The notes under the pieces were generated by a model. The model had not been told where the DNA came from. It saw only the letters and a list, made by a program, of their open reading frames with translations, and did no database searches. From the NCBI RefSeq assembly GCF_020171315.1, contig NZ_JAIUZP010000006.1, positions 124,001-188,000 on the forward strand: 64,000 bases of DNA, given 5' to 3'. Positions within the stretch are counted from its first letter, which is position 1. Every line of letters starts with the position of its first letter. This document shows positions 45,014 through 64,000 of the stretch, in pieces. The translations under genes were made by a program, and so were the position numbers. This stretch comes from Pseudooceanicola nanhaiensis. Its GTDB lineage: Bacteria; Pseudomonadota; Alphaproteobacteria; Rhodobacterales; Rhodobacteraceae.

Positions 45014-45973
45014 TCAGTTCATGCTGACGCCGCGGGACTCGTAGAATTCCTTGGCGGCGGGGTGGAACGGCACACCGATGTCGGTGGCCATCATGTCCAC
45101 GGTCAGGCCGGCCATCGACTTGGTGATCGCACCAAAGCTGTCGATGTTGTCGGCGATCGCGCCCAGGACAGCCTTAACGATCTCGCCGTCGAAGTCGCAG
45201 GCCGCGACCATGTGGGTGTCATAGGAAATCGCGTGCTTCACTTCGTCGATGCCCGGGTAGGAGCCCGGCTTGACTTCACGCAGCTGGAAGGCGGCGTTCA
45301 TGTCCTTGAAGTGCTTGAAGGTTTCCTCGTCGATGTCGATCATGTTGATGTCGCGCGACGAGGCGAGGTCCATGACCGAGCCGGTGGGCAGCGAGGAGCC
45401 GAGGGTGAAGATGTCGGCATGGCCGTCCTTCATCTGGCTGGCGCTGTCCGAGTAGGACGTATGCGCGACCGACTTCATGTCGTCGAAGGACAGGCCGGCG
45501 GTGCCGAGCAGTTCGCGGGTGAGGTATTCACCGGTGTTGCCGAGCTGCTGGGTGGTCAGGTCGTGGCCCTTCATGTCCGCAACCGAGTTGATGCCGCTGT
45601 CCGCGGTCACGACAACCTGGAAGTACTGCGGATAGAGCACGCCGATGTTGCAGACGTTGGTGGTCGCCTTGCGGAAGGGCTCCTTGCCTTCGAGGCTGTC
45701 CACGGTCGAAATCGAGTTCGCGAAGGCGATCGGGAAACGACCCGCATCGACGCCCACCACGTTGGCCACGCCCGCGCCGGGGGTGACGGTGATCGACAGG
45801 TCGGGGATTTCCTTTTCCACGATGGCCTTGATCGCGCCGCCGACGGGGAACCAGGACCCGCCCTGCTGGCCGGTGGCCATCACGAATTCATTGGCCTGCG
45901 CGGCCACGGCCCCGGATGCAACGATGGCAGCCACGGCAACTGCGCCGCGGGCGGCTTTGAGAACTTGAGACAT
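45014..45973 (-). CDS. TAXI-family TRAP transporter substrate-binding protein
   Basis: The 319-residue protein has a Sec signal peptide (cleavage after about residue 27, AAQA). The mature N-terminus FVMATGQQGGSWFPVGGAIK and the VTPGAGVANVVGVDAGRFPIAFANS region are TAXI hallmarks. TAXI proteins bind organic acids in the periplasm. It is transcribed divergently from the FadR-type regulator and the larE-larB genes, across a 320-base control region rich in palindromes, so its ligand may be the substrate of the Ni-pincer pathway. Confidence 0.93.
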   Translation of the reverse strand: MSQVLKAARGAVAVAAIVASGAVAAQANEFVMATGQQGGSWFPVGGAIKAIVEKEIPDLSITVTPGAGVANVVGVDAGRFPIAFANSISTVDSLEGKEPFRKATTNVCNIGVLYPQYFQVVVTADSGINSVADMKGHDLTTQQLGNTGEYLTRELLGTAGLSFDDMKSVAHTSYSDSASQMKDGHADIFTLGSSLPTGSVMDLASSRDINMIDIDEETFKHFKDMNAAFQLREVKPGSYPGIDEVKHAISYDTHMVAACDFDGEIVKAVLGAIADNIDSFGAITKSMAGLTVDMMATDIGVPFHPAAKEFYESRGVSMN

Positions 45974-46110
45974 GTAACTCCTCCCGAGTTTTGCTGACTG
46001 AGCTCAGGGCCGGCCGCGCGGATCTCCTGTCCGCAAAGCCAATGGTCCTGCCCGTCGCTCCTCCCTGATACGACACGGGCGTGCCGTCTTGGGCAACTTC
46101 CCCCACAAGG

Positions 46111-46138
46111 TGACAACTTGTCAAACGAAAATACAAGT
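46111..46138. promoter_or_regulatory. Candidate FadR-type operator
   Basis: TGACAACTTGTCA (46111-46123) is a perfect 13-base palindrome. Overlapping it, ACTTGT (46116-46121) and ACAAGT (46133-46138) form an interrupted inverted repeat. The GT...AC layout suits FadR-family GntR regulators, one of which is encoded next door. Confidence 0.55.
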
Positions 46139-46252
46139 CAGCAGCGTTCTCTTTGCGCTTGCCAAACAAAATATGGAGATAAACCCTTATTTTGCAGGTG
46201 CAGAAACGATTCTGCTGGCGTCCGAACCTGTAAGGTCCTCATATTGACATCT

Positions 46253-46264
46253 TATAATACAAGT
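46253..46264 (+). promoter_or_regulatory. -10 box overlapping second AATACAAGT element
   Basis: TATAAT (46253-46258) lies 35 bases before the GntR start codon. It overlaps AATACAAGT (46256-46264), which repeats the half-site at 46130-46138. A regulator bound here would block RNA polymerase. No good -35 hexamer is evident at normal spacing. Confidence 0.45.
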
Positions 46265-46293
46265 GTACCGTCGATCCCCGGAGGAGACTGTCA

Positions 46294-47085
46294 ATGAGCG
46301 AGCTTTTCGGGAAATCCGTGTCTCTGACGCGCGGGTCAACGCTGAGCGATCAGGTGACCGAGGCGTTGCGCCAGAACGTGACCAGCGGCGCCTGGCCCGT
46401 GGGCAGCATGTTGCCGTCCGAGGCCATGCTTTGCCAAGAACTTAATGTCTCCCGGACCGTCATTCGCGAGGCCGTCGCGCGGCTGAAGGCCGAGGGTCTT
46501 CTGTCCAGCCAGCAGGGGCGTGGCGCCTTTGTCGCCTCCAACCGCTCGCGGCTGGGGTTCTCCATCGACGCGGGGGACGTGGACAACCGCCGGACGCTTG
46601 GACAGATTCTCGAACTGCGCATGGGGATCGAGATCGAGGCCGCCGCCATCGCCGCCCGCCGCCGGACCGAGGCCGACCTCGACACGATTCGCGAGGCAGT
46701 GGAGGCCTTCGCCGCGCAGCAGCGCCACAGCCCTGAAAACGCCCGCGCGGGCGTGGAGGCCGACCTGCGCTTCCACCGTGCGATCTGCGAGGCGACGCGC
46801 AACAGCTATTACCTCGCCTTCTACGACTATCTCAGCGCCAGCCTGCGCGAGACGATCGAGGCCGGCCGTGAACGCGCCCTGCAACGGGGCGGCGACAGCC
46901 GCGAAGCGGCCGAGGAACACCGCTCCATCGTCGAGGCGATCGCCGAACAGGACATGTTCGCCGCCCGCAAGCGGATGAGAAAGCACCTCGAACTGTCGCG
47001 CGACCGTCTGCTGGGGCAGCTCTGGGACCATCAGGGAGAGCAGAGCGACCTGCATCGCAACGACCGGCCCGAGGCGGCGGAGTGA
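46294..47085 (+). CDS. GntR-family (FadR/FCD) transcriptional regulator
   Basis: The 263-residue protein has an N-terminal winged helix with LPSEAMLCQELNVSRTVIREA (about 40-60) and a C-terminal all-helical FCD domain with LELRMGIEIEAAAIAARR and a metal-binding DLRFHRAIC...EHRSIVEAI pattern. FCD regulators usually sense organic acids. It is the first gene of the operon that continues into larE (GTGA overlap) and larB, and it is divergent from the TAXI-TRAP operon, which it probably controls. Confidence 0.9.
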   Translation: MSELFGKSVSLTRGSTLSDQVTEALRQNVTSGAWPVGSMLPSEAMLCQELNVSRTVIREAVARLKAEGLLSSQQGRGAFVASNRSRLGFSIDAGDVDNRRTLGQILELRMGIEIEAAAIAARRRTEADLDTIREAVEAFAAQQRHSPENARAGVEADLRFHRAICEATRNSYYLAFYDYLSASLRETIEAGRERALQRGGDSREAAEEHRSIVEAIAEQDMFAARKRMRKHLELSRDRLLGQLWDHQGEQSDLHRNDRPEAAE

Positions 47086-47909
47086 CCTGCGCCCGCCCGC
47101 CCCATGGAACCGCCCTGCCCGCCGCGCTTCACGCCGCGTTGCAGGCGCCCGACCGGCTGACCATTGCGCTGAGTGGCGGGATTGATTCGCTGACCCTCTC
47201 CGCTGCCGCAGCCCTCGCCCGCGACGGGCAGGTCTCGCTGGTGCATGCCGTCTCCGCCGCCGTGCCTGCTGCCGCTACCGCGCGGGTGAAACACTTCGCC
47301 GAGGCCCGCGCCCTGCCCCTGCGGCTGGTGGATGCGGGCGAATTCGCCGATCCGCGCTATCGCGCAAACCCGGTGAATCGCTGCTATTTCTGCAAGTCGA
47401 ACCTCTATGGCACCCTGCGCCGTCTAGCGGGCGACGGGGCCATTGCCGCGGGCACCAACCTCGATGACCTCGGGGATTACCGCCCCGGGCTTCAGGCCGC
47501 AGACGAACATGCCATCCTGCATCCCTTCGTGGCGGCAGAGATGCCGAAATCCGAGGTCCGCGCCCTGGCCCGGCGCCTCGGCCTCGGCGATCTGGCAGAG
47601 CTGCCCGCCGCGCCCTGCCTTGCCAGCCGGATCGAGACCGGCCTGCGGGTGGAGCCTGCCGAACTGGCGCTGATCGACGCGGTGGAGAGCGCGCTGCGCG
47701 ACCGGCTGGGCCCTGTCACCCTGCGCTGCCGCCGTCTGCCCGATGCCCTTGCGATCGAGATCGACGCCGCGACCCTTGCCGCCCTCACGGCGGACGCGCA
47801 GGCCGAGCTGACCGCGCAGGCCCGCGCCGTGGCCGCCGCCCACGCTGCCGACCACCTGCCGCTGCGCCTGCGCGCCTACAAGAGAGGGAGCGCCTTCATC
47901 CATGCCTGA
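47082..47909 (+). CDS. larE: LarE: ATP-dependent sulfur transferase for nickel-pincer cofactor synthesis
   Basis: The 275-residue PP-loop protein begins with GTG overlapping the regulator's stop codon. SGGIDS (31-36) is the ATP pyrophosphatase P-loop. NRCYFCKSNLY gives Cys101 and Cys104, GTNLDDLGDYRPG lies at about 124-136, and APCLASRI gives Cys179. LarE adenylates and thiolates the two carboxylates of pyridinium-3,5-biscarboxylic acid mononucleotide. Three cysteines in this arrangement mark the branch thought to use a [4Fe-4S] cluster for sulfur transfer rather than sacrificing one cysteine. larB follows with an eight-base overlap. Confidence 0.93.
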   Translation: MTCARPPHGTALPAALHAALQAPDRLTIALSGGIDSLTLSAAAALARDGQVSLVHAVSAAVPAAATARVKHFAEARALPLRLVDAGEFADPRYRANPVNRCYFCKSNLYGTLRRLAGDGAIAAGTNLDDLGDYRPGLQAADEHAILHPFVAAEMPKSEVRALARRLGLGDLAELPAAPCLASRIETGLRVEPAELALIDAVESALRDRLGPVTLRCRRLPDALAIEIDAATLAALTADAQAELTAQARAVAAAHAADHLPLRLRAYKRGSAFIHA

Positions 47910-48618
47910 GGACCGTTTCGACAGCGACCCGAACGTGACCTTCGACCGCGACCGCCAGCTGCGCATCGGGCTGGAGGAGGCCGTGCTGGCCGAATTCAAG
48001 ACCGTCGATCAGGTCTCGGCCATCCTTGGCGATGCCATCGCAGAGGGCCGCCGCCTGCTGCTGACCCGCCTGACCCATGACCAGCATGCCGCCCTGCCCG
48101 AGGCGCAGCGCGCGGCCATCGACTATTGCCCGATCTCACGGACCGCGATCCTCGGCGACCTGCCGCCGCAGGCGGTGACCCCACGGGTGGCCCTCGTCAG
48201 CGCGGGCACCTCGGACGCGGGCCCGGCGCTGGAGGCGCAGCGGGTGCTGGCCTATTCCGGCCTCTCCGCCACCATGGTGGCCGACGTGGGCGTGGCCGGG
48301 CTATGGCGGCTGCTGCGGCAGGAGGAACTACTGAAGTCCATGCAGGTCGTCATCGTCTTTGCCGGCATGGATGCGGCGCTGCCCTCGGTGGTGGCGGGCC
48401 TCGTGCCGGGCATGGTGATCGCGGTGCCCACCTCGGTCGGCTACGGCGTGGCGGCGGGCGGCCAGACGGCGCTGAACGCCACGCTGGCCAGCTGTGCGCC
48501 CGGCATCCTCGTGACCAATATCGACAACGGCTATGGTGCCGCCTGTGCCGCGCTGCGCTTCGCCCGGGTCACCGCACCGGCCATGGCCCAGGCCACCCCG
48601 CCGCGCGACGCGTTTTGA
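47902..48618 (+). CDS. larB: LarB: nicotinic acid adenine dinucleotide carboxylase/hydrolase
   Basis: The 238-residue protein has a PurE-like core: AGTSD (101-105), VFAGMDAALPSVVAGL, PTSVGYG (176-182), Cys198 in TLASCAPG, and NIDNGYGAA (206-214), all typical of LarB. LarB carboxylates C5 of the pyridinium ring of NaAD and cleaves the phosphoanhydride, giving the substrate for LarE. It overlaps larE and precedes a second GntR gene on the same strand. Confidence 0.93.
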   Translation: MPEDRFDSDPNVTFDRDRQLRIGLEEAVLAEFKTVDQVSAILGDAIAEGRRLLLTRLTHDQHAALPEAQRAAIDYCPISRTAILGDLPPQAVTPRVALVSAGTSDAGPALEAQRVLAYSGLSATMVADVGVAGLWRLLRQEELLKSMQVVIVFAGMDAALPSVVAGLVPGMVIAVPTSVGYGVAAGGQTALNATLASCAPGILVTNIDNGYGAACAALRFARVTAPAMAQATPPRDAF

Positions 48619-48694
48619 CATGTCCGACAGCCTGCGGATAATACCCCCCCATACGGGGCCCGGGATCGGGTCCGTGGCAACGGGTGGCATCGGA

Positions 48695-49411
48695 ATGGAC
48701 AACGGCAAGCTGACGATCCGCAAGCGCAAGACGCTCTCGGACCAGCTCTATGGCCAGATCCTCGAACAGATCGTCTCCGGCACCCTCTCGCAGGGGGAGA
48801 AGCTGCCCTCCGAGAACCAGATCTGCACCGCCTTCGAAGTGTCCCGCCCCGTGGTCCGCGAGGCCCTGCGCAAGTTGCAGGAGGACGGGCTGATCGAGGC
48901 CCGTCGCGGCGTCGGCTCCTTCGTGCGCAAGCGCCCGCCGCAGGGGCTGATCGAATATACCACCGCTGACAGCGTCTCTGGCCTCATGCGCGCCATGGAA
49001 GCCCGGATCGTGCTGGAAAAGGAAACCGCCCGCCTCGCCGCCATGCGCGCGGAACCCCGCGACATCGCCAAGATCGAGGCCGCCATGGAGCGGCTGGAAC
49101 AGGCGATGCAGGCCCGCGAACCGGCGGGCGACGCGGATTTCGACTTCCACCTCGCCGTGGCAGAGGCCAGCGGAAACGAGGTCTTCGTCACCATGCTGAC
49201 CGCCGTGCGCGACGTGGCCGAGCGGACGATCCAGGTGGCGCAGAGCATCACCCGCGCCGGCACGCAGGCCCGCATCGACCGCGTGGCCCGCGAACACCGA
49301 CAGGTGCTGGAGGCGATCAAGGCCCGCGATGGCGAGGCCGCCGGTCTGACCATGGCCTATCACCTGCTGCAGGCGCGCCAACGTGTGACGGACAACGCGC
49401 GGGACGATTGA
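48695..49411 (+). CDS. GntR-family (FadR/FCD) transcriptional regulator
   Basis: I place the start at the ATG of MDNGKLTIRKRKTLSDQLYG, giving 238 residues. An in-frame ATG at 48620, two bases after the larB stop, would add 25 residues of low family character; neither has a strong ribosome-binding site. The winged helix includes LPSENQICTAFEVSRPVVREAL, and the FCD domain has MRAMEARIVLEKETARLAAMR and the DFDFHLAVAEASGN metal motif. It is the last gene of the larE-larB strand before a convergent spacer. It differs from the 52579/58009 pair. Confidence 0.85.
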   Translation: MDNGKLTIRKRKTLSDQLYGQILEQIVSGTLSQGEKLPSENQICTAFEVSRPVVREALRKLQEDGLIEARRGVGSFVRKRPPQGLIEYTTADSVSGLMRAMEARIVLEKETARLAAMRAEPRDIAKIEAAMERLEQAMQAREPAGDADFDFHLAVAEASGNEVFVTMLTAVRDVAERTIQVAQSITRAGTQARIDRVAREHRQVLEAIKARDGEAAGLTMAYHLLQARQRVTDNARDD

Positions 49412-49609: not shown

Positions 49610-49701
49610 TTTGCAAAGTGGCGAGAGGTGGTTTGCAAAGCAACCCGCCCCCTCCGTCCGGCCAATCCAACTTTGCAAACAGCCCACACGAGATTTGCAA
49701 A
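49610..49701. repeat. Array of four TTTGCAAA palindromes spaced 22-40-22
   Basis: The octamer TTTGCAAA occurs at 49610, 49632, 49672 and 49694. The first two read GTTTGCAAAG; the third and fourth read as its reverse complement at the flanks. Context is shared crosswise: GGTGGTTTGCAAA (49627-49639) is the exact reverse complement of 49694-49706, and site 1 resembles inverted site 3. Confidence 0.85.
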
Positions 49702-49993: not shown

Positions 49994-50899
49994 CTACGAC
50001 CGCCCGGCGATCAGGTCTTCCATCATGCCGCGCTCTTCCTCGGTCAGGTCAGTGAGCGGGGCGCGCACCGGGCCGGTCTCGAAGCCACGCAGGCTGACGC
50101 CCGCCTTGATCGCCGAGACCGCGTAACCGGCGCAGCGGTCGCGGATCTTGGCGAAGGGATAGTAGAACTCCCGCAGCAGCCGCTCGCAGGTGGCATCGTC
50201 GCCCTTGCTGAAGGCATCGAAGAAGCTCAGCGCCGTTTCGGGCACGAAGTTGAAGACGGCCGAGGAATAGGTCGGCATCCCCGCCCCGCGATAGGCCTGC
50301 GCGAAAAGCTCGTGCGTGGGCATCCCGCCGATGTAGGACAGCCGGTCGCCCATCTGGATCGTCACCCGGCGCACCGTGTCGATGTCACCGGTGCCATCCT
50401 TGAAACCGATCAGGTTGGGGCATTCCTCCGCCAGTTGCTCCAGCGTCTCGGCCGAGACGCGCGAGGCGCCGCGGTTGTAGACGATGACGCCCATGTTGGT
50501 GGATTTGCACACCGCGCGGATGCGGTTCGCAACGCCTTCCTGCGGGCCCTCGGTCAGGTAGTGCGGCAGCAGCAGGATGCCGTCGCCGCCCGCCGCTTCG
50601 ATCGCCTGCGCCATGTCGCAGGCCATACGGGTGCCATAGCCGCAGCCCGCGATCACCGGCGCGTCGCCCGCCACCTGACGGGCGACCTTCACCACCTCGA
50701 CCACCTCGTTCGGGGTGAGGGAGAAGAGCTCCCCCGTGCCGCCGGCCACGATCAGGCCGGCAACGGGATAGGAAGAGAGCCAGTCGAGATGCGCGGCGAA
50801 AGGCTTGGGCGCGAAACGGTCCTGATCGTCGAAGGGCGTCACCGGGAAGGAGAGCAGCCCGGTGCGGATCAACTCCCGCAGGTCGGTCGGTGCAATCAT
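49994..50899 (-). CDS. kdgD: 5-dehydro-4-deoxyglucarate dehydratase
   Basis: The 301-residue DapA-superfamily enzyme has GLLSFPVTPFD (14-24), GTGE (54-57), the Schiff-base Lys167 in LIGFKDGTGD and the proton-relay Tyr141 in VIVYNRG. GILLLPHYLTEG and the GMPTYSSAVFNFVP segment are specific to KDGDH, which dehydrates and decarboxylates 5-keto-4-deoxy-D-glucarate to 2-oxoglutarate semialdehyde. The aldehyde dehydrogenase immediately upstream on the same strand (10 bases) would take the product to 2-oxoglutarate. Confidence 0.9.
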   Translation of the reverse strand: MIAPTDLRELIRTGLLSFPVTPFDDQDRFAPKPFAAHLDWLSSYPVAGLIVAGGTGELFSLTPNEVVEVVKVARQVAGDAPVIAGCGYGTRMACDMAQAIEAAGGDGILLLPHYLTEGPQEGVANRIRAVCKSTNMGVIVYNRGASRVSAETLEQLAEECPNLIGFKDGTGDIDTVRRVTIQMGDRLSYIGGMPTHELFAQAYRGAGMPTYSSAVFNFVPETALSFFDAFSKGDDATCERLLREFYYPFAKIRDRCAGYAVSAIKAGVSLRGFETGPVRAPLTDLTEEERGMMEDLIAGRS

Positions 50900-50909
50900 G
50901 CCTCTGGCC

Positions 50910-52439
50910 TCACTTTATGTCCGCGGGCAGGATCGAAGCCGGCACGTTCTGATAGCTCACCGGGCGCAGGAAGCGGCGGATCGACATCGTGCCGACGCTG
51001 GTCGCGCCGAAGTTGGTGGAGGCCGGGTACGGGCCGCCGTGGACCATGGCGTCGCAGACCTCGACACCGGTGGGGAAGCCGTTGACCAACACGCGGCCCG
51101 CCTTGCGCTCCAGCACGGGCAGCAGGCGGCGGGCATCCTCGGCGTCCTCGTCATCCATGTGGATCGTCGCGGTGAGCTGGCCCTCGAAACCCTTGGCAAG
51201 GCCGACCATCTCGTCGACCGAGTTCACCCGCACCACGAGGCCGAGCGGGCCGAAGACCTCTTCGCCGAGCGCGTGATCCTGCAGATAGGTCTCGGCATCG
51301 GTTTCATAGAGGTTGGGCAGCGCGCCGCGGGGGCCAGCGTCCTTGGCCAGCAGCGGGCGCACGGCGTTGCGACCGTCGAAACGGGCCTTGCCGTCGCGAT
51401 AAGCCTTGGCGATGCCGTCGGTCAGCATGACCTGCTCACCCACCTGATCCAGCGCCACGCGGGCCGCGTTGACGAAGGCGTCACCGGCGGCACCCTTCTC
51501 GACCACGGCGATGCCGGGGTTGGTGCAGAACTGGCCCGCGCCCATGGTCAGCGACCCGGCCCAGCCGGCGCCCATCTGCGCCGCGCGCGTCTTGACGGCC
51601 TCGGGCATCATGAACATCGGGTTGACCGAGCCCAGTTCCCCGAAGAAGGGGATCGGCTCGGGCCGCTGCGCGCAGAGGTCGAAGAGCGCACGGCCCCCGG
51701 CCAGCGAGCCGGTGAAGCCCACGGCCTTGATCAGCGGATGCTGGACGAGCGCGCTGCCGACCTGACGATTGCCGCCCTGGATCAGCGAGAAGACCCCGGG
51801 GTGCAGCTTGCAGCGTTCGATGGCGGCGTGGATCGCCTCGGCCACGATTTCACCGGTGCCGGGATGGGCGGAGTGGCCCTTGACCACCACGGGGCAGCCT
51901 GCGGCTAGGGCGGCTGCGGTGTCGCCCCCGGCGGTGGAGAAGGCGAGCGGGAAGTTCGAGGCGCCGAAGACGGCCACCGGGCCGATCGGGCGCTGCATCA
52001 GCTTGATGTCGGGACGCGGCAGCGGTTCACGGTCCGGCAGTGCCTTGTCATGACGGATGTCGAGGTAGGCGCCGTCGCGGATGTGCTGCGCGAAGAGACG
52101 CAGCTGGCCGGTGGTGCGGCCACGCTCGCCCTGCATCCGCGCCACGGGCAGACCGGATTCGCGGTGCCCGATCTCGGTGATCTGCTCGGCGCGGGCCTCC
52201 ATCTCGTCGGCGATGGTCTCAAGGAAGACCGCACGCTCTTCGCGGGTGGAATAGCCGTAGCTCCAGAAGGCTTCCTCGGCGGCTTCACAGGCGGCCTCGA
52301 CGTGATCCACGGTGCCGACGGAGAAATCGTGCTGCGGACCCTCGAAGGGCTCGTTCTTGAAATGCGACGGGCCTTCGACCCAGTCGCCTGCGATCAGATG
52401 CTTGCCGTGCGGTGTGAAATGAAGTGCGTTTCCGTCCAT
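50910..52439 (-). CDS. 2-oxoglutarate semialdehyde dehydrogenase (NADP+-type aldehyde dehydrogenase)
   Basis: The 509-residue enzyme has the ALDH cofactor segment PVAVFGASNFPLAFSTAGGD, VGFTGSLAGGRAL, the catalytic Glu in FFGELGSVNP and catalytic Cys in GAGQFCTNPG. The GAGQFCTNPG context and N-terminal ADHFxx-type layout match alpha-ketoglutaric semialdehyde dehydrogenases. It should oxidise the semialdehyde formed by KDGDH or by the DapA-family dehydratase at 56051. It is divergent from a GntR gene across a 139-base spacer with a palindrome. Confidence 0.9.
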   Translation of the reverse strand: MDGNALHFTPHGKHLIAGDWVEGPSHFKNEPFEGPQHDFSVGTVDHVEAACEAAEEAFWSYGYSTREERAVFLETIADEMEARAEQITEIGHRESGLPVARMQGERGRTTGQLRLFAQHIRDGAYLDIRHDKALPDREPLPRPDIKLMQRPIGPVAVFGASNFPLAFSTAGGDTAAALAAGCPVVVKGHSAHPGTGEIVAEAIHAAIERCKLHPGVFSLIQGGNRQVGSALVQHPLIKAVGFTGSLAGGRALFDLCAQRPEPIPFFGELGSVNPMFMMPEAVKTRAAQMGAGWAGSLTMGAGQFCTNPGIAVVEKGAAGDAFVNAARVALDQVGEQVMLTDGIAKAYRDGKARFDGRNAVRPLLAKDAGPRGALPNLYETDAETYLQDHALGEEVFGPLGLVVRVNSVDEMVGLAKGFEGQLTATIHMDDEDAEDARRLLPVLERKAGRVLVNGFPTGVEVCDAMVHGGPYPASTNFGATSVGTMSIRRFLRPVSYQNVPASILPADIK

Positions 52440-52578: not shown

Positions 52579-53274
52579 ATGACAAATCTGGGGTTTCTGA
52601 CACCGGAACGACCTGCGGGCGGCTCTGCCGCGACGCGGGTCTTCGAGGATTTGCGCCGCCGGATCATCGCGCTGGAGCTTCCGCCGGGCACGCCCTTCCT
52701 GCGCGCAGAGCTGGCGCAGCGCTATGACGTGAGCCAGACGCCGATCCGCGAGGCAATGCAGCGGCTGGAGCAGGAAGGCCTTGTGAAAGTCTATCCGCAG
52801 TCCAAGACCGTGGTCACCAAGATCGACGTGCCGCAAATTTACGAGGCGCATTTCCTGCGCACGGCGGTGGAGATCGAAGTGGTGCGCAGGCTTGCCGAAG
52901 AGCCCCCGAAGGAGACGCTGGCCCGCGCCCGCTCGCTTCTGCGGATGCAGGAGGCGGTGAAGGACGACCCGGCGCAGATGGCCGTGTTCCAGGAATTGGA
53001 CGAAGTGTTTCACCAGACGCTTTTCGACGGGATCGGACAGGGCGGCATTCATGCGCTGATCCGCGCGCGCTCTGGCCACCTAAACCGGCTGCGGCGGCTC
53101 GACCCGCCCTCGGGCGAGAAGATCGCCTATATCCTGCGGGGGCATGGCGAGATCCTCGACGGGATCGAGGCCCGAGATCCGGAGGCGGCCACGGTCGCCA
53201 TGCGCGATCACCTCAGCCGCACGGTGGCGCGGGTCGAGGAGCAGCGCGTGGAACATCCGGATTTCTTCAGCTGA
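52579..53274 (+). CDS. GntR-family (FCD) regulator, paralogue of 58009-58785
   Basis: The 231-residue protein has a winged helix with RAELAQRYDVSQTPIREAMQRLEQEGLV and an FCD domain with QELDEVFHQTLFDGIG, ending VEHPDFFS. PQSKTVVTKIDVPQIYEAHFLRTAVEIEVVRRL is closely matched in the regulator at 58009, so the two are paralogues. It is divergent from the KDGDH/semialdehyde dehydrogenase operon and probably controls it in response to a sugar-acid intermediate. Confidence 0.9.
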   Translation: MTNLGFLTPERPAGGSAATRVFEDLRRRIIALELPPGTPFLRAELAQRYDVSQTPIREAMQRLEQEGLVKVYPQSKTVVTKIDVPQIYEAHFLRTAVEIEVVRRLAEEPPKETLARARSLLRMQEAVKDDPAQMAVFQELDEVFHQTLFDGIGQGGIHALIRARSGHLNRLRRLDPPSGEKIAYILRGHGEILDGIEARDPEAATVAMRDHLSRTVARVEEQRVEHPDFFS

Positions 53275-54213: not shown

Positions 54214-54233
54214 CTGATACGGTAATATATCAG
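54214..54233. promoter_or_regulatory. Operator candidate CTGATA-N8-TATCAG
   Basis: CTGATACGGTAATATATCAG has six-base inverted arms and contains TAATATATCA (54223-54232). It is in the divergent promoter region of the aldolase and the IlvD-type operon. A near-identical element occurs at 58804. Confidence 0.7.
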
Positions 54234-56965: not shown

Positions 56966-57672
56966 ACCCGCAAACCAAGGAAAAACTGATGCAGGTCTCG
57001 GTGGCGACGCTGGCCACCGCGCTCTACAAGCGCGGGCTGCGCAGCCAGGTGATCCAGGGCGTCCACCCGGTGGGCCCCAAGGGCCGCAACATGGTGGGCC
57101 CCGCTTTCACCCTGCGCTACATGCCCGCCCGGGAGGACCGCAACCAGCTGGTCGAGTTCCGCAACCCCGAGCATCCGCAGCGCGCCGCCATCGAGACCTG
57201 CCCCGAGGGCCATGTCTTCGTGATGGACAGCCGCAAGGACCCGCGGGCGGCCTCGGCGGGCGACATCCTGCTGACCCGGCTGATGATGCGCGGCGGCGCC
57301 GGCGTCGTCACCGACGGCGGGCTGCGCGATGCCGCCACGATCGCCCAGCTGGACATGCCCTGCTACCATCAGCGCCCCTCCAGCCCCACGAACCTGACGC
57401 TGCACGAGGCGATCGAGATCAACGTGCCCATCGGCTGCGGCGACGCCCCGGTCTTCCCCGGCGACATCATCGTGGGCGACGACGATTGCGTCATCGTGAT
57501 CCCCGCGCATCTCGCCGAGGAAGTGGCCGACGAGGCCACCGAGATGACCGCCTACGAGGATTTCGTGGTGGAACAGGTCAAGGAGGGCGCCGCGATCATC
57601 GGCCTCTATCCCGGCACCAAGCAGGAGAACCTCGACAAGTTCGCCGCCTGGCGCAAGGCCAACAACCGCTGA
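56962..57672 (+). CDS. RraA-family protein (4-hydroxy-4-methyl-2-oxoglutarate aldolase-like)
   Basis: The 236-residue protein starts in an ATGA overlap. Family motifs are GPAFTLRY, the GGAGVVTDGGLRDAATIAQLDMPCY block that contains the metal and pyruvate-binding residues, and DIIVGDDDCVIVIP. RraA-fold enzymes are divalent-metal aldolases or oxaloacetate decarboxylases; some inhibit RNase E. Retention of the G-x20-R-D motif (GGLRD) supports catalytic activity. As the third gene of a sugar-acid operon it probably acts on a keto acid intermediate. A terminator hairpin follows at 57718. Confidence 0.82.
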   Translation: MNPQTKEKLMQVSVATLATALYKRGLRSQVIQGVHPVGPKGRNMVGPAFTLRYMPAREDRNQLVEFRNPEHPQRAAIETCPEGHVFVMDSRKDPRAASAGDILLTRLMMRGGAGVVTDGGLRDAATIAQLDMPCYHQRPSSPTNLTLHEAIEINVPIGCGDAPVFPGDIIVGDDDCVIVIPAHLAEEVADEATEMTAYEDFVVEQVKEGAAIIGLYPGTKQENLDKFAAWRKANNR

Positions 57673-58008: not shown

Positions 58009-58785
58009 TCAGCCGAAGTATTCCGGGTAGGCCGCGCGTTTCTCCGTGATCCGGTCCACCGTGCGCTGCAGGTGGGCGCGCAGCGCCGTGGTGGCGGCGC
58101 TCACATCGCGGGCCGCGATACCGTCGAGGATGTCGGCGTGGCCGCCGAGCACCGCGTCCATGCGCACCGGTCCGGTATCCGTGGGCGTACCGTCATCGGG
58201 CAGGAAGATGCGCCGCAGCCGGTCGAGGTGACCGGCGCGGGAGCGCATGACCCGCTGGCTCTGCTCGTGCCCGGCCGCGGCAAAGAGCGCCTGGTGGAAA
58301 AGCTCGTCGAGTTCCTGGAAGGTGGGCACCGCCGCCGCATCGCCCGCCAGGCTCTCCTGCAGCGCGTGGATAGACCGCAGCCGCGCCAGGTCGGCGTCGG
58401 AGATCCCTTCGGAGGCCAGTTGGCGCACCACTTCCGTCTCCAGCGCCAGCCGCAGGAACTGCGCCTCGCGCACCTGCGGCACGTCGATCGGGGCGACCAG
58501 CGTCTTGGACTGCGGGAAGATCCGCACCAGCCCCTCCTCCGCCAGCTGCTGCAGCGCATCGCGCAGCGGCGTCAGGCTGACCCCAAAGGTCTTGGCCAGC
58601 TCCGCCCGCGGCAGCGAGGTCCCCGGCGGCAGGTCCAGCCGCACGATCCGGGTCCGCAGCACCTCGTAGACAGTGCGTCCCGCGGGCCCGCCCTCGAAGA
58701 GTCCCGCGCCCGTGTCCGAGAGCCCGAAGCTTTCTGCAAGCCCGCTGGTGCCGCGGCTCATCGCTGTTCCGATCAAATCCTGCAT
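58009..58785 (-). CDS. GntR-family (FCD) regulator, paralogue of 52579-53274
   Basis: The 258-residue protein has a winged helix with RAELAKTFGVSLTPLRDALQQLAEEGLV and an FCD domain with QELDELFHQALFAAAGHE, ending AAYPEYFG. It shares IFPQSKTLVAPIDVPQ with its paralogue at 52579. An N-terminal extension of about 25 residues precedes the winged helix; the ATG at 58785 has an AGG site and is kept. It is divergent from the UxaA-type gene, and the TAATATATCA palindrome lies between them. Confidence 0.9.
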   Translation of the reverse strand: MQDLIGTAMSRGTSGLAESFGLSDTGAGLFEGGPAGRTVYEVLRTRIVRLDLPPGTSLPRAELAKTFGVSLTPLRDALQQLAEEGLVRIFPQSKTLVAPIDVPQVREAQFLRLALETEVVRQLASEGISDADLARLRSIHALQESLAGDAAAVPTFQELDELFHQALFAAAGHEQSQRVMRSRAGHLDRLRRIFLPDDGTPTDTGPVRMDAVLGGHADILDGIAARDVSAATTALRAHLQRTVDRITEKRAAYPEYFG

Positions 58786-58803: not shown

Positions 58804-58824
58804 CTGATAGATCTAATATATCAG
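58804..58824. promoter_or_regulatory. Operator candidate CTGATA-N9-TATCAG
   Basis: The arms CTGATA (58804-58809) and TATCAG (58819-58824) enclose TAATATATCA (58814-58823), as at 54214. It sits in the divergent promoter region of the GntR gene and the UxaA-type dehydratase gene. Confidence 0.7.
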
Positions 58825-58882: not shown

Positions 58883-60430
58883 ATGACCGAAACGCTGGCC
58901 GAAACCGCGCCCAGATCCCCCGTATTGCGCCTGAGCCCCGGCGACAACATCGTTGTCGCGATCCGCGAGATCCCGGCCGGCACGGCGCTGCCCACGGAGG
59001 GCGTCACCGCCAACCACGACGTGCCTCAGGGCCACAAGGTCGCCACGCGCCCGATCCAGGCCGGCGCGCCGATCCTGAAGTTCGAGACCGTCATTGGCTA
59101 TGCCGCCCATGACATCGCGCCGGGCGACTGGCTGCACAGCCACAACATCAAGTTCGACGCGGTCGAGAAGGACTATGCCTTCGCCCGCGACTACGTCCCG
59201 ACCGAGATCCTGCCCCCCGAGCAGCGCGCCACCTTCCAGGGCATCAAGCGCGCGAACGGCAAGGTCGGCACGCGCAACTACATCGGTCTCTTCGTCACCG
59301 TGAACTGCTCCGCCACCGTGGCGCGCAAGATCGCGAACTACTTCGACGAAGAGCGCATGGAAGACTGGCCCAACGTCGACGGCGTGATCCCCTTCATCCA
59401 CGAAAGCGGCTGCGGGATGGAGCTGACCGGCGAGCCGATGGACCTGCTGCGCCGCACGCTGGCAGGCTATATCCGCCACCCCAACATGGCCGGTGCCGTG
59501 GTCTGTTCGCTGGGCTGCGAGCGCAACAACCTCGTGCAGTTCTTCGAGGAGCAGAGCCTCGCCGAAGGCAAGATGCTGCACACGGTCACTATGCAGAACG
59601 TCGGCGGCACGGCCGAGGCGATCAAGACCGGCAAGGCCGCCGTGCGCGCCATGCTGGACGAGGCCAACAAGATCGAGCGCACCCCCTGCTCGGCCGAACA
59701 TATCACCATCGGGATGCAATGCGGCGGCTCCGACGGGCTGTCGGGGCTGACGGCGAACCCGGCGCTGGGGCGCGCGGCGGACATCCTGATCCAGCACGGC
59801 GGCACCGCGATCCTGTCCGAAACGCCCGAGATCTTCGGCGTGGAACACCTGCTGACCCGGCGCGCGCGTTCCGAGGAAGTGGGCCGCAAGCTGGTCGAGC
59901 GGATGGATTGGTGGCTGGACTACACCAAGGGCAAGGACACCCAGATCAACGGCGTCGTCAGCCCCGGCAACAACGCGGGCGGCCTCGCCAACGTGCTGGA
60001 GAAATCGCTGGGCGGCTCCAAGAAGGGCGGCACCACCGGGCTGATGGAAGTCTATCGCTACGCCGAGCCGGTGGTCGAGAAGGGCTTCATCTTCATGGAC
60101 ACCCCCGGCTTCGATCCGGTCTCGGCCACGGGGCAGATCGCGGGCGGCGCGAACCTGATCTGCTTCACCACCGGGCGCGGCTCCTGCTTTGGCTCCTATC
60201 CCTCGCCCACGATCAAGCTGGCCTCGAACACGCCGATGTTCACCAAGATGGTCGAGGACATGGACATCAACTGCGGCGAAATCGTCGATGGCACCAAGAC
60301 GCTGGACGAGATGGGCGAGGATATCTTCCAGCACATCCTGCGGATCGCCTCCGGCGAGAAGAGCAAGTCCGAAGCGCTCGGCGTGGGGGAAGAGGAATTC
60401 GCCCCCTGGCCCATCGGCGTGACGGGCTGA
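58883..60430 (+). CDS. UxaA/GarD-family sugar-acid dehydratase
   Basis: The 515-residue protein has an N-terminal SAF domain (about residues 15-100, with LSPGDNIVVAIREIPAGTAL and PIQAGAPILKFETVIGYA) joined to the dehydratase body beginning GIKRANGKVGTRNYIGLFV. Cysteines in HESGCGMEL, CSLGCERNN and MQCGGSDG could bind iron. The family contains D-altronate dehydratase (UxaA) and D-galactarate dehydratase (GarD). A GarD-like activity would produce 5-keto-4-deoxyglucarate, the substrate of KDGDH at 49994, so aldarate use is favoured by context. AGGGAGGA precedes the start. Confidence 0.87.
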   Translation: MTETLAETAPRSPVLRLSPGDNIVVAIREIPAGTALPTEGVTANHDVPQGHKVATRPIQAGAPILKFETVIGYAAHDIAPGDWLHSHNIKFDAVEKDYAFARDYVPTEILPPEQRATFQGIKRANGKVGTRNYIGLFVTVNCSATVARKIANYFDEERMEDWPNVDGVIPFIHESGCGMELTGEPMDLLRRTLAGYIRHPNMAGAVVCSLGCERNNLVQFFEEQSLAEGKMLHTVTMQNVGGTAEAIKTGKAAVRAMLDEANKIERTPCSAEHITIGMQCGGSDGLSGLTANPALGRAADILIQHGGTAILSETPEIFGVEHLLTRRARSEEVGRKLVERMDWWLDYTKGKDTQINGVVSPGNNAGGLANVLEKSLGGSKKGGTTGLMEVYRYAEPVVEKGFIFMDTPGFDPVSATGQIAGGANLICFTTGRGSCFGSYPSPTIKLASNTPMFTKMVEDMDINCGEIVDGTKTLDEMGEDIFQHILRIASGEKSKSEALGVGEEEFAPWPIGVTG

Positions 60431-60649: not shown

Positions 60650-61984
60650 ATGCTGGACGGCGCGAAACCGAATTACGTGAAACTGGTCGAGGATACGGTG
60701 CTGCCGCGCATCGTGCTGTGCAAGCAGACCTTCCCCGCCACTCGGATCGACGATCCGGCAGCCGCCGTGCGCGACGCCATGGCCGGCGCCGACTGCGTGG
60801 GCAAGATCACCCCCGGCATGTCCATCGCCGTCACCGCCGGCAGCCGCGGCATCGCCGTCTTCCCCGAATTGCTGCGCGCGCTGATCGACGAGATCAAGGC
60901 CCGCGGCGCCCATCCCTTCATCGTGCCCGCCATGGGCAGTCACGGCGGCGCCACGGCCGAGGGTCAGGTCAAGGTGCTGGAAAAGCTGGGCGTGACCGAA
61001 GCCTCGATGGACTGCGAGATCCGCTCCTCCATGGAGACGGTCGAGGTTGGCACGCTGGAAAACGGCATGGTCGTGCGGATCGACAAGCACGCCTACGGGG
61101 CCGACGGCATCGTGCTCTTCAACCGGATCAAGCCGCATACCTCCTTCCGCGCCCCGAACGAGAGCGGGCTGGCCAAGATGCTCTCCATCGGGCTCGGCAA
61201 GCAATCAGGCGCGGAAAGCTGCCATTCCCGCGGCATCGACAACGTGCCGATCTACGTGGACATGCAGGCGCGGGTGAAGCTGGCCACCTGTAAGGTGCTC
61301 TTCGGTCTCGGCTCGATCGAGAACGCCTATGACCAGCTGGCCAAGGTCGTCGTGCTGGACAGCGAAGGGCTGATCGAGGCGGAACAGCCCTTCCTGCAGG
61401 AGGCGATGGCCAACATGCCCCGCCTGCCCCTCGGAGATCCCGAGGCACCGGTGGCGGAGGGCGAGCTGGACGTGCTCGTCGTGGACATGATCGGCAAGGA
61501 GTTTTCCGGCACCGGCATGGACCCGAACATCACGCACCGCTTCTCCTCGCAGAAGATGCAGCGGCAGGCGACGATCAACATCAAGCGGCTGGCCGCGCTG
61601 GAGCTGTCGCCGCAGTCGGCCGGCAACGGCAATGGCGCGGCGCGGGCCGACGTGGTGACCGCGCGGCTGGAAGCGGCCTTCGACCGCGAGGCGGTCTATG
61701 CCAACTCGCTCACCTCCACGGTGCTGATGCAGGCCAAGATGCCCATGGTCATGCCCGACGACCGCTCCGCCATCCAGGCGGTGGTGAAGACCTGCGAGGC
61801 TGAGGACCTGCGCATGTGCAAGCTGATCCGCATCCCGAATACGCTGCACCTTGGCTATCTCTACGTCTCCGAGGCGATGCTGGCGGAGCTTGAGGGCCGC
61901 CCCGGCTTCGAGGTGGTTGGCGAGTTGGAGGAGATGCGGTTCGAGAACGGGCGGATCGCGAACCCCTGGCCCAAGGCCCATTGA
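60650..61984 (+). CDS. larA: LarA-family nickel-pincer-dependent racemase/epimerase
   Basis: The 444-residue protein retains the LarA active-site pattern: Arg66 in AGSRGI, His98 in PAMGSHGGAT, His163 in KPHTSF, Lys176 in SGLAKML (equivalent to the lysine that binds the pincer cofactor covalently) and His192 in SCHSRG. Spacing between the lysine and last histidine is 16, as in Lactiplantibacillus LarA. LarA enzymes invert 2-hydroxyacids by hydride transfer to the nickel-pincer nucleotide. Overall sequence is far from lactate racemase, and the neighbours are sugar-acid enzymes, so a C2 aldonate or aldarate epimerase is likelier. An AGGGAGGA site precedes it; larC overlaps its stop codon. Confidence 0.88.
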   Translation: MLDGAKPNYVKLVEDTVLPRIVLCKQTFPATRIDDPAAAVRDAMAGADCVGKITPGMSIAVTAGSRGIAVFPELLRALIDEIKARGAHPFIVPAMGSHGGATAEGQVKVLEKLGVTEASMDCEIRSSMETVEVGTLENGMVVRIDKHAYGADGIVLFNRIKPHTSFRAPNESGLAKMLSIGLGKQSGAESCHSRGIDNVPIYVDMQARVKLATCKVLFGLGSIENAYDQLAKVVVLDSEGLIEAEQPFLQEAMANMPRLPLGDPEAPVAEGELDVLVVDMIGKEFSGTGMDPNITHRFSSQKMQRQATINIKRLAALELSPQSAGNGNGAARADVVTARLEAAFDREAVYANSLTSTVLMQAKMPMVMPDDRSAIQAVVKTCEAEDLRMCKLIRIPNTLHLGYLYVSEAMLAELEGRPGFEVVGELEEMRFENGRIANPWPKAH

Positions 61985-63393
61985 TGCGGGATCTCGGCAT
62001 GGGCGCGCGGCTGCATCTCCATCTCGATCCGCTCGGTGGCGCGGCAGGCGACATGTTCGTGGCCGCGCTGCTGGATGCCTTTCCCCATCTGACCGCCCGC
62101 GTCATGGCCGATTGCGCCGCCGTGCTGCCCGCCGAGGCAGGCCATGCGCGGCTGGCGAAGGGTATGAGCGGCGGCATGGCCGTGAAGCGGTTCGGGCTGG
62201 CGGGCACGGCGGAGGGTGGGGATCACCACCATGGCCATGATCATTCGCATGGTCATTCCCACGGGCATGCTCATGGGCATTCTCATGGTCATTCGCACGG
62301 GCATTCCCATGGCCATTCTCACGGGCACGCGCACTCCCATTCGGAGGCGCAGGCCCACGCGGAAGACCACGGGCATGGGCACAGCCACGCGGCGTCTCAC
62401 GCGCATGACCATGACCACAGCCATTCCCACGATACGACCTACCGCGCCCTGCGCGCCCGGATCGAGGAAGCGCCACTGGCCCCCGGCACCGCGGCAGAGG
62501 CCTGCGCCATCCTGCACCGGATCGCGCTCGCGGAAGCGGCGGCCCATGCCCTCCCCGTCGAGGAGGTGCATTTCCACGAGCTCGCCGACTGGGACAGCCT
62601 GATGGATGTGACGGCCGCGGGCTCGATCGCGGCGGCGCTGGAGGGCGCGACATGGTCCGTGGCACCCCTGCCCCTTGGCGCGGGCCTCGTGAAGACGGCC
62701 CATGGGATGCTGCCGGTCCCGGCCCCGGCGACGGCGAAGATCCTCGCAGGCTACGACTGGATCGACGATGGCGTGGCGGGGGAGCGGGTCACGCCGACAG
62801 GTGCCGCGATCATCGCCCATCTGACCGCGGGCCGCCACGGCACAAGGCCTCCGGGCCGGCTGACCAGCAGCGGCATGGGCGCGGGCACGCGCACCCTGCC
62901 CGACCGGCCCAATGTGCTGCGCGTCACTGCCTTCGAGATCACCGCCGCCCCAATTCCGGGGTTTGAAACCGCCGACCGCCAAGACAGCGACCGCGTGGTG
63001 CAACTGGCCTGCGATCTGGACGACATGACCGGCGAGGAGATCGGCTGGGCGGTGGAGGCCTTGCGTGCCCTGCCCGGCGTGGTGGACCTGACGCTGCTGC
63101 AGGCGCAGGGCAAGAAATCCCGTCCTGTCACCCGGATGGAACTCCTGCTCAGCCCGCAGGCAGAAACCGAGGTGATCCGGGAAATCTTCGACAAAACAAG
63201 CACGTTGGGCTTGCGCCGGACCGAGGTCGCGCGCCTGATCCTGCCGCGGGACAGCGGCACCGCACCGGATGGTGCCCGCCGCAAGACCGCCACCCGCCCC
63301 TCCGGTGTGACCACCAAGGCCGAAAGCGACGACCTCGCCTCGGCCCCGACGCTGGCCGCGCGCCGCGCCCGCGCCCGCACCGCCGAGAGCTGA
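61984..63393 (+). CDS. larC: LarC: nickel insertase for the nickel-pincer cofactor
   Basis: The 469-residue protein starts at the ATG overlapping the larA stop codon (a TTG one codon earlier is possible). LHLDPLGGAAGDMFVAALLD matches the LarC N-terminus. VEEVHFHELADWDSLMDV is the later family motif, followed by VTPTGAAIIAHL and CDLDDMTGEEIGWAVEAL. Residues 81-149 hold about 32 histidines, probably for nickel storage or delivery. LarC is a CTP-dependent cyclometallase that inserts nickel into the pincer ligand. Unlike the split larC1/larC2 of Lactiplantibacillus, it is one continuous frame. Confidence 0.93.
   Translation: MRDLGMGARLHLHLDPLGGAAGDMFVAALLDAFPHLTARVMADCAAVLPAEAGHARLAKGMSGGMAVKRFGLAGTAEGGDHHHGHDHSHGHSHGHAHGHSHGHSHGHSHGHSHGHAHSHSEAQAHAEDHGHGHSHAASHAHDHDHSHSHDTTYRALRARIEEAPLAPGTAAEACAILHRIALAEAAAHALPVEEVHFHELADWDSLMDVTAAGSIAAALEGATWSVAPLPLGAGLVKTAHGMLPVPAPATAKILAGYDWIDDGVAGERVTPTGAAIIAHLTAGRHGTRPPGRLTSSGMGAGTRTLPDRPNVLRVTAFEITAAPIPGFETADRQDSDRVVQLACDLDDMTGEEIGWAVEALRALPGVVDLTLLQAQGKKSRPVTRMELLLSPQAETEVIREIFDKTSTLGLRRTEVARLILPRDSGTAPDGARRKTATRPSGVTTKAESDDLASAPTLAARRARARTAES
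62221..62430 (+). repeat. Low-complexity His-codon tract within larC
   Basis: Repeated CAT/CAC units separated mainly by GGN and TCN codons encode the His-rich insert of LarC. The repetition is imperfect and entirely coding. Confidence 0.9.
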
Positions 63394-63401
63394 CATCCCG
63401 C

Positions 63402-63421
63402 GACGGCCCCGCCGGGCCGTC
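63402..63421 (+). terminator. GC-rich hairpin after larC
   Basis: GACGGCCC (63402-63409) pairs with GGGCCGTC (63414-63421) nine bases after the larC stop codon, followed by CCCCTAA rather than a T-tract. It may be a weak terminator or an RNA-stabilising element. Confidence 0.5.
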
Positions 63422-63538
63422 CCCCTAACCGGACCCGCAGGGGTCCCCCGCAAGGACCGGCCCGCCCGGGCCCGCGGACCGGGCGCGCCATGGCGCGGCC
63501 CGACCGCCCCAGACCGCGCACCACGCAAGGAGACCCTC

Positions 63539-64000
63539 ATGAAACCTCAGGTGCTCATCATCGCCCCGCTGCTCCCCGGCCAGATGGCCCAGTTGGAGGC
63601 CGCCTACGACCTGCACCGCCTCGACAAGGCCGCCGACAAGGCCGCCTTCCTCGCCGAGGTCGGCCCGCAGATCGACGCGGCGGTCACCGTCGGCTCCGTC
63701 GGTTTCACCCGCGCGCAGGCCGAGGCGCTGCCCAAGTGCAAGATCGTCTCCACCTCCTCGGTGGGCTACGACAAGATCGACCTTGCCGCCTGCGCCGCGC
63801 ATGGCATCGCCGTGACCAACACGCCGGACGTGCTGACCGATGACGTGGCCGATACCGCGCTGATGCTGCTGCTGGCCGCCGCACGGCAATTGCCGCAGGG
63901 CGAGGCACATGTGCGCACCGGGGCCTGGGCCAAGAAGGGGCAGATGCCGCTGACCATGGCGCTGAAGGGCAAGACGCTGGGCGTGGTCGGACTGGGCCGC
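63539..64000 (+). CDS. D-isomer-specific 2-hydroxyacid dehydrogenase (truncated by window end)
   Basis: The first 154 residues are visible. The N-terminal catalytic-domain half contains VSTSSVGYDKIDLAACAAHGIAVTNTPDVLTDDVADTAL, typical of glyoxylate/hydroxypyruvate reductase-like enzymes, and the visible sequence ends in the start of the Rossmann motif VVGLGR. The catalytic Arg, Glu and His lie outside. It oxidises or reduces a D-2-hydroxyacid with NAD(P). It follows larC by 145 bases, so it could act on the D isomer made by the LarA-family enzyme. AGGAG precedes the start. Confidence 0.9.
   Translation, partial: MKPQVLIIAPLLPGQMAQLEAAYDLHRLDKAADKAAFLAEVGPQIDAAVTVGSVGFTRAQAEALPKCKIVSTSSVGYDKIDLAACAAHGIAVTNTPDVLTDDVADTALMLLLAAARQLPQGEAHVRTGAWAKKGQMPLTMALKGKTLGVVGLGR

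Follow-up and report, generated by a model that had tools for sequence, protein, structure and literature searches.

The subject of this work is an island of genes within a 64-kb stretch of DNA (the window) taken from the 515-kb contig C6 of the draft genome of Pseudooceanicola nanhaiensis (G000:C6). All genome-wide counts refer to this 4.82-Mb draft genome. The island includes complete larE, larB and larC genes, which provide the nickel-pincer nucleotide (NPN) cofactor, a gene for a LarA-family enzyme and, between the lar genes, open reading frames (ORFs) for seven catabolic enzymes, accompanied by four regulators of the GntR/FCD type. The original prediction for this DNA had listed these elements, together with a divergent TAXI-TRAP importer and a trailing D-2-hydroxyacid dehydrogenase, and had proposed that the LarA homologue is a C2 epimerase feeding the dehydratases. 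It was right in outline, and its interpretation is partly supported. Gene content, family membership, fold, conservation, a common upstream element and a recurrent association were obtained by computation. We consider it rather probable that these genes form a module for sugar-acid catabolism that brings its own NPN supply, in which a C2-epimerase moves erythro acids to threo forms, toward 2-oxoglutarate.

The LarA-family enzyme and its cofactor genes

The LarA-family ORF (60650–61984, +) exceeds the curated cut-off of NCBIfam model NF052515 (nickel pincer cofactor-dependent isomerase, group 22) with 478.8 against 400 bits. This model names no substrate. The next-best models are those for malate racemase (32 bits, cut-off 500) and LarAH10 (19.1 bits, cut-off 540), and the Pfam Lar_N threshold is narrowly exceeded (33.1 versus 23.3). 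The protein is the only one of its kind in the genome, both by PF09861 and by NF052515. Identity is 61–76% inside the clade to which it belongs and 35–49% to the remaining aligned sequences. One member of the collection, an 829-aa ORF (L030:9300-11789), carries LarA (76%) as its C-terminal half, the N-terminal half probably being in-frame upstream non-coding DNA.

Kinship with LarA was settled by a fold search after a profile search of PDB sequences had failed to do so: the group-22 alignment profile retrieved no LarA structure from among them, only noise-like matches (E 0.0054 to 9.4). An AlphaFold2 model built from 59 sequences (pLDDT 94.1, pTM 0.91) was compared with the PDB by Foldseek, and every one of the 16 chains matched at E ≤ 1e-3 belongs to the LarA family, the figure for 9eia being 3e-12. 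These matches share 12–18% identity with the protein at a query TM-score of 0.45–0.55. The predicted presence of a LarA-family enzyme is thus borne out by family model and by fold.

Residues H98, H163, K176 and H192 are invariant in the 59 aligned sequences and correspond to the catalytic and NPN-site residues. H98 and H163 align with conserved histidines of the LarA protein L133 (Lar_N 245.6 bits; hhalign, low probability), while the assignment of K176 and H192 rests on their invariance and on the same 16-residue spacing, because the profile alignment to canonical LarA is weak. H98 and H163 would form the acid/base pair, K176 would tether the NPN and H192 would sit on the nickel. The presence of H163, the second catalytic histidine, led us to set aside the chemistry of LarA group 17. 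The positions directly after the second histidine (F175/F176 of LarA) hold F,F in lactate racemases and E,V in gluconate epimerases (PMC11770544, as far as its available text goes). The gluconate epimerases are further marked by A,H where LarA has W358/T359. Here they are T164 and S165; the hhalign alignment with L133 places a two-residue gap exactly at this point, and the loop from the second histidine to the lysine is three residues longer than in L133. Because of this gap, the T,S pair was not counted for or against either a GntE-type epimerase or a lactate racemase.

The completeness of the cofactor genes was likewise confirmed. LarE (47082–47909, +) reaches 231 bits with TIGR00268 (cut-off 150), LarB (47902–48618, +) 236.8 bits with NF033503 (cut-off 175) and LarC, the nickel insertase (61981–63393, +), 162.2 bits for LarC1 (cut-off 90) and 86.2 bits for LarC2 (cut-off 50), the two LarC domains lying in one frame with no frameshift between them. 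The genome thus has all three of larB, larC and larE. LarC is present as a single copy, inside the island, as is the only LarB over the family cut-off; a second LarB match scores 34.8 bits and falls below it. The LarE cysteines C101, C104 and C179 form a CxxC...C arrangement, and three-cysteine LarE proteins of this kind have been linked to a [4Fe-4S]-type mechanism (PMC9283937, in the available text). LarC carries a histidine-rich insert with 32 histidines within residues 61–165, perhaps a nickel store. The three proteins would make NPN for the single group-22 enzyme, and the island probably carries a supply dedicated to it. In Sulfitobacter dubius (S. dubius), which has a related island, genes that by eye resemble those of urease, likewise a nickel enzyme, are found some 4 kb past the island end (L124:14171-17997). 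Beyond bacteria, the available text of PMC8305020 notes possible larBCE homologues in Haloferax volcanii and suggests that this organism could have a nickel-pincer enzyme.

Catabolic genes, regulators and a common upstream element

The two dehydratases stand in separate rows. The UxaA/GarD-family protein (58883–60430, +; PF04295, PF20629 and SAF) has the second and the C-terminal GD_AH domains as well as a SAF domain; it is the sole GD_AH_C match in the genome, and its four conserved cysteines (142, 177, 212 and 280) align with those of GarD 6u7l. Its gene is followed directly by those for the LarA-family enzyme and LarC, the gap between UxaA and LarA being 219 bp in the window and 3 bp in S. 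dubius. The IlvD/Edd dehydratase (54286–56040, +) is of the L-arabinonate dehydratase type and exceeds the corresponding model, NF009559, with 1093.4 against 882 bits. It heads a row that continues with DapA2 (56051–56965, +; PF00701, 81–82% identical in relatives), assigned to the DHDPS family only and presumed to be a 2-keto-3-deoxy-acid dehydratase, and with an RraA-like protein of the aldolase/decarboxylase superfamily (56953–57672, +; NF006093, 352 bits, cut-off 208).

The remaining catabolic genes lie on the opposite strand. A KdgD-like 5-dehydro-4-deoxyglucarate dehydratase (49994–50899, −) exceeds its subfamily cut-off (NF002958, 412.6 against 278 bits) and lies just below that of the equivalog model (TIGR03249, 367.5 against 373.95); its closest solved chain is 4ur7, a keto-deoxy-galactarate dehydratase (388.7 bits). 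It is accompanied by an aldehyde dehydrogenase (ALDH; 50910–52439, −; PF00171, 78–81% in relatives), presumed to act on 2-oxoglutarate semialdehyde, and by an HpcH/HpaI-type 2-keto-3-deoxy-acid aldolase (53391–54161, −; PF03328). The names given to the RraA-like, ALDH and HpaI proteins hold at the family level only.

The four GntR/FCD regulators, all recognised by family models, are distributed among these rows. The first (46294–47085, +; PF00392 and PF07729, 58–60% in relatives) opens the larE-larB row; the second (48620–49411, +; 66–69%), whose start codon is uncertain, follows larB; the third (52579–53274, +; 67% in the plasmid pSMR1-2) lies between ALDH and HpaI; and the fourth (58009–58785, −; 64–68%) is divergent from UxaA.

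An operator-like 11-mer, TAATATATCAG, is present in exactly two copies in the genome, one in the divergent gap between HpaI and IlvD (54223–54233, +) and the other in that between GntR4 and UxaA (58814–58824, +); the reversed control gave no copy. It therefore precedes both rows, IlvD-DapA2-RraA as well as UxaA-LarA-LarC. S. dubius (L044, positions 4114 and 8362) and L051 have exact copies at the corresponding two places. It is also exact before UxaA on the plasmids p1 (L145, 18368) and pSMR1-2 (L146, 18371), with one change before IlvD on both. In the gene cluster L129 it occurs in two gaps, before RraA and before TRAP-like genes. A few exact copies are also present in the Bacillota loci L062, L064, L080 and L135, with no visible link. 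The common element suggests that the two rows are very probably under one regulator, and it could overlap a promoter.

Other palindromes in the window were also considered. The sequence TAATATATCAA (37225–37235), outside these gaps, is TAATATATCAG with one change. Further palindromes common to several gaps were unconvincing and were rejected; TGACAACTTGTCA at 46111, for example, has only a similar, non-identical relative in S. dubius. A different palindrome, TTTGCAAA, occurs four times within 92 bp (49610–49701), with 0.10 expected in the window, and pairs spaced by 22 bp recur elsewhere in the genome. It presumably resembles sites recognised by short-chain-acyl-CoA regulators, for example Rhodobacter PccR.

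Conservation in relatives, presence on plasmids and recurrence

The gene order is kept in S. dubius (L044, L124) and on pSMR1-2 (L146), a plasmid of Pseudosulfitobacter pseudonitzschiae SMR1 recorded as coming from a culture of the diatom Skeletonema marinoi. It runs from an FAD oxidase through a TPP enzyme, the TRAP permease and TAXI protein, GntR1, LarE, LarB and GntR2, and continues with ALDH and HpaI, then IlvD, DapA2 and RraA, then GntR4, and finally UxaA, LarA and LarC. Since this order is retained at 58–89% protein identity to the window island, the grouping exceeds chance. It also places the start of the conserved block at about 39.7 kb (~39710), further left than originally predicted: the elements named in that prediction are all present, and two more belong to the block. 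These are the FAD-linked oxidase of the GlcD/D-2-hydroxyacid dehydrogenase family (39710–41149, −; Pfam PF01565 and PF02913, 73–75% in S. dubius and pSMR1-2, with the order unchanged) and an acetolactate synthase-like, thiamine pyrophosphate (TPP)-dependent enzyme of the PRK08199 subfamily (41160–42935, −; NF006052, 776.9 bits, cut-off 539, 81–82% in the two syntenic islands). They are followed by the fused TRAP permease (42984–44855, −; TIGR02123, 632 bits, cut-off 321, 83% in relatives) and the TAXI-family solute-binding protein (45014–45973, −; TIGR02122, 193.7 bits, cut-off 84, 77–79%), both divergent from gntR1 as expected.

Three of the elements originally counted into the island are less constant. 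For KdgD, the S. dubius and pSMR1-2 stretches offer no orthologue, the only match being to DapA2 at 29%. GntR3 has a 67% counterpart on pSMR1-2 and no orthologue of its own in the S. dubius stretches. The trailing D-2-hydroxyacid dehydrogenase (63539–64000, +; PF00389/PF02826) is cut by the window edge and intact in the genome (318 aa, L125); its only relative in these islands is 30% identical and lies elsewhere in that of pSMR1-2, so that it does not clearly belong to the conserved block.

Plasmids of marine bacteria associated with algae carry very similar gene sets. A smaller one, p1 (L145), retains ALDH, IlvD, DapA2, GntR4, UxaA, LarA and LarC in the stretch examined, and the UxaA-LarA-LarC row is kept in pSMR1-2, p1 and S. 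dubius alike. Tallies of the plasmid collection gave 60 records each for UxaA (80–90% identity band), LarA (60–80%) and LarB (60–80%), divided in each case into 47 from Pseudosulfitobacter and 13 from Sulfitobacter. A plasmid origin of the window contig was looked for among RepC matches: the genome has three, on C13, C17 and C20, and none on C6. More distantly, pMaD2 of Marinovum algicola (L147:5464-15406) carries a LarA relative (44% identical) with TRAP genes, a 2-keto-3-deoxy-galactonokinase and an aldolase. It also encodes a homologue of LarB (55%) and a possible LarE, seen as a PP-loop ATPase, and there are transposases nearby. Relatives of LarA at about 33–42% identity occur on haloarchaeal plasmids (hits H101–H125 except H119), where several are annotated as DUF362, in at most four places per listed record.

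Group-22 LarA genes are rare: of 385 genomes in the class and 394 in the family, 11 carry one in each case, our own genome counted in both. We examined 100 loci, comprising 20 of the 21 places in class or family relatives and the best 80 of at least 589 relatives, which is not a random sample, with up to 10 kb of DNA on each side of LarA and less on short contigs. An IlvD/Edd gene is present near LarA in 22 of these loci and a UxaA gene in 20. Within the family, IlvD is near LarA in 6 of 10 relatives, where 0.21 would be expected from its copy number (P 1.3e-8), and in two of four when one genome is taken per LarA clade (P 0.003); the figures for UxaA are 2 of 10 (P 0.002) and one of four (P 0.03).

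The distribution of the association was followed on a quick tree of 99 rows, the window and 98 relatives. IlvD and UxaA occur jointly in 17 rows, the window included, which requires seven gains or losses, six of them forced by support of at least 95; none of 500 shuffles gave as few as seven changes, and with the window counted apart there are six changes, five of them forced. The label appears at five separate places: the window with Sulfitobacter, L024/L025, L053, a Bacillota branch and L058. Independent origins are not thereby proved, since gains and losses are indistinguishable. The partner IlvD proteins themselves differ, sharing 63–86% identity with that of the window in some LarA loci and 30–47% in others. 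In the Bacillota, the partner is a 734-aa IlvD/Edd relative next to LarA (L104:11252-13456 and relatives, a cluster of 11 loci), longer than a normal IlvD and below all cut-offs among the models listed. The predicted association of LarA with the dehydratases is therefore seen in unrelated lineages, and in the window the two rows have a rare element in common.

Sister clades occur in other contexts, which also read as sugar-acid pathways from their gene content. A 36-row Bacillota branch (with L063, L076, L087, L093, L118 and L120 as examples) contains 28 of the 29 rows labelled for gluconokinase, 6-phosphogluconate dehydrogenase (Gnd) or glucuronate isomerase (UxaC). One representative of each exceeds its cut-off (694.5/648.6, 777/427 and 632/387 bits, respectively), and a short-chain dehydrogenase/reductase of the D-mannonate oxidoreductase type lies beside LarA in this context (292/281 bits), although generic members of that enzyme family inflate its tally over the 100 loci. 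The context can be read as leading from mannonate to gluconate, and this branch is likely to be a further family of D-mannonate/D-gluconate epimerases. In a third context, PdxA-family genes are near LarA in 8 of the 100 loci, one of which, from Salinicola (L050), also has a DUF1537-type kinase.

Proposed role, competing explanations and known systems

On these grounds the LarA-family enzyme is likely to be a sugar-acid epimerase, which would invert C2 of a 2,3-dihydroxy sugar acid by proton-coupled hydride transfer. As a proposed rule, IlvD/Edd dehydratases act on threo acids of the 2R,3S type, such as L-arabinonate and D-xylonate, and UxaA/GarD enzymes on the opposite threo type, 2S,3R, which includes D-arabinonate, D-altronate, D-idonate and L-galactonate. 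We know of no dehydration of erythro acids by either. For acids such as D-ribonate, D-lyxonate, D-mannonate and D-erythronate, inversion at C2, a reaction of the LarA type, would have to come first. In agreement, the available text of PMC6336799 reports that UxaA/GarD substrates have the D-arabinonate configuration at C2 and C3 in common and that the Herbaspirillum IlvD/Edd enzymes act on L-arabinonate and D-xylonate.

That the enzyme epimerises its substrate, which class of acid it takes and in which direction, that the route ends in 2-oxoglutarate and that TAXI-TRAP is the importer are all inferred. The direction 2R,3R to 2S,3R is favoured because UxaA directly precedes LarA and because a sister clade sits near PdxA-family genes, whose products, if they serve D-threonate, would want 2S,3R acids as UxaA does. 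A pair of this kind, such as D-ribonate and D-arabinonate, is a tentative choice of substrates, the plainest case being conversion of D-ribonate to D-arabinonate. The resulting 2-keto-3-deoxy acid would lose water through DapA2 (or, for hexarates in this genome, KdgD) to give 2-oxoglutarate semialdehyde, which the ALDH would oxidise to 2-oxoglutarate; the HpaI aldolase would provide a side route. These last steps, and any roles of TAXI-TRAP, the TPP enzyme, the FAD oxidase and RraA, are inferred. A more speculative extension, which we hold as a possibility and less than an even one, is a stereochemical closure: one NPN C2-epimerase and two dehydratases of opposite handedness would channel sugar acids of all four C2/C3 configurations into a single route to 2-oxoglutarate. 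In the window clade the main task of the epimerase would be 2R,3R to 2S,3R (D-ribonate, D-erythronate or D-allonate type), and plasmids would have spread it among roseobacters that live with diatoms.

Several observations weigh against an epimerase-dependent module. The relative G680 (L129) has an IlvD-DapA2-UxaA-RraA-KdgD-ALDH core, 73, 66, 69, 80, 74 and 78% identical, respectively, to the window proteins, with no lar genes in that stretch; its group-22 LarA lies elsewhere, beside other dehydratases that are 46–59% identical. The core therefore needs no epimerase beside it, and LarA is an add-on. The pMaD2 stretch examined has no annotated dehydratase. Four of the 11 LarA-positive family genomes have neither IlvD nor UxaA within about 10 kb, a partial exception to the catabolic association on which the original prediction had staked itself and which holds overall. 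Among the tree relatives, 34 of 98 carry none of the context labels, 12 of these on loci shorter than 12 kb, and genomic context was found not always helpful for LarA homologues (PMC7583248, in the available text). The profile alignment with a canonical LarA is weak and confined to the N-terminal part (hhalign probability 5.8%). As to the partners, the single NCBIfam match of UxaA, galactarate dehydratase GarD (TIGR03248), falls below its cut-off (365.8 against 730.85 bits), the HpaI protein lies below the curated cut-offs of the models listed (HpaI 262 and GarL 245 bits), and the ALDH lies below the cut-off for all 25 NCBIfam matches listed of 39, with 97.5 bits for the GucD-type model (cut-off 770) and 117.6 for the best (cut-off 514).

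These partner scores bear on the question of whether the enzyme is instead an aldarate C2 epimerase (talarate/galactarate or mannarate/glucarate, for example) in a hexarate pathway through 5-dehydro-4-deoxyglucarate. The closeness of KdgD to 4ur7, the galactarate dehydratase match of UxaA, the resemblance of HpaI to GarL and the aldarates suggested for LarA group 19 (in the available text of PMC7583248) all point this way. KdgD, however, is missing from syntenic islands that retain UxaA-LarA-LarC, UxaA is far below the galactarate cut-off, and IlvD is of the L-arabinonate type, so that we regard this explanation as unlikely.

Two further possibilities appear improbable, to much the same degree. 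The enzyme might act on four-carbon acids, taking D-erythronate to D-threonate while the dehydratases serve other substrates, as a sister clade (Salinicola L050, Xanthobacteraceae L047) with a PdxA-family gene near LarA could suggest; the additional DUF1537-type kinase of L050 presumably recalls the D-threonate route. The L050 and L047 PdxA proteins, however, pass the general PdxA model and not that for D-threonate 4-phosphate dehydrogenase (340 and 288 bits, cut-off 583). Neither a PdxA nor a DUF1537 kinase was found when the ORFs of the window island were scanned, or in the annotation of the pSMR1-2 stretch, and the direct neighbour of LarA is UxaA. Alternatively, it could be a simple racemase of lactate, malate or 2-hydroxyglutarate whose location is fortuitous. 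The FAD D-2-hydroxyacid-type oxidase and the 2-hydroxyacid dehydrogenase in or beside the island would fit such a role, and the test against it from the loop is weak, T,S rather than F,F following H163 at a two-residue alignment gap; against it stand the conserved row, the upstream element shared with sugar-acid dehydratases, the sugar-acid contexts of the labelled related clades and the low scores of the malate-racemase and LarAH10 models (32 and 19 bits). Finally, a sulfolactate racemase feeding a sulfo-lyase would make the UxaA-like protein a relative of SuyAB, which belongs to the same superfamily, and was set aside as very improbable because the four cysteines conserved except in the sulfo-lyase (PMC6336799, in the available text) appear present in alignment with GarD.

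The preferred reading, a sugar-acid module with a dedicated nickel epimerase, would give group 22, whose curated model is without a named substrate, a bounded pathway with its own cofactor genes, and the named marine plasmids that carry the island point to strains suited to testing it. If true, it would extend the degradation of sugar acids in the sea by a nickel enzyme and provide a rule for where a nickel epimerase is needed, namely in converting erythro sugar acids to the threo forms that dehydratases accept. Neither the available text of the papers cited here nor any title or abstract opening listed in the literature search mentions this island or assigns a substrate to group 22, and no paper found in that search joins lactate racemase with altronate dehydratase or with Sulfitobacter.

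Among known systems, LarA group 17, with Asn in place of the second histidine (PMC12611868, in the available text), is an uncharacterised branch with a carbohydrate genome context like that of the window enzyme, which retains H163. On the side of the pathway, the non-phosphorylative pentonate route of Herbaspirillum huttiense resembles the island in combining UxaA/GarD-type and IlvD/Edd-type pentonate dehydratases and in leading from 2-keto-3-deoxypentonate via 2-oxoglutarate semialdehyde to 2-oxoglutarate; in the available text of PMC6336799 an L-KDP dehydratase of the DHDPS superfamily, the family of DapA2, is named, whereas no NPN enzyme is described and the keto-deoxy dehydratases studied are of the FAH type. 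The closest enzymes are the GntE D-gluconate 2-epimerases (GntE1 of Corynebacterium glutamicum, group 19; GntE2 of Thermotoga maritima, group 20; LarAH15), which carry out NPN-dependent C2 epimerisation of aldonates within the same fold family and, in groups 19 and 20, likewise occur in a uronate or aldonate context. Where the GntEs have E,V after the second catalytic histidine the window enzyme has T,S, the alignment there being uncertain, and it is distinguished from them by membership, by score, in group 22 with its own curated model and by a context of two dehydratases.

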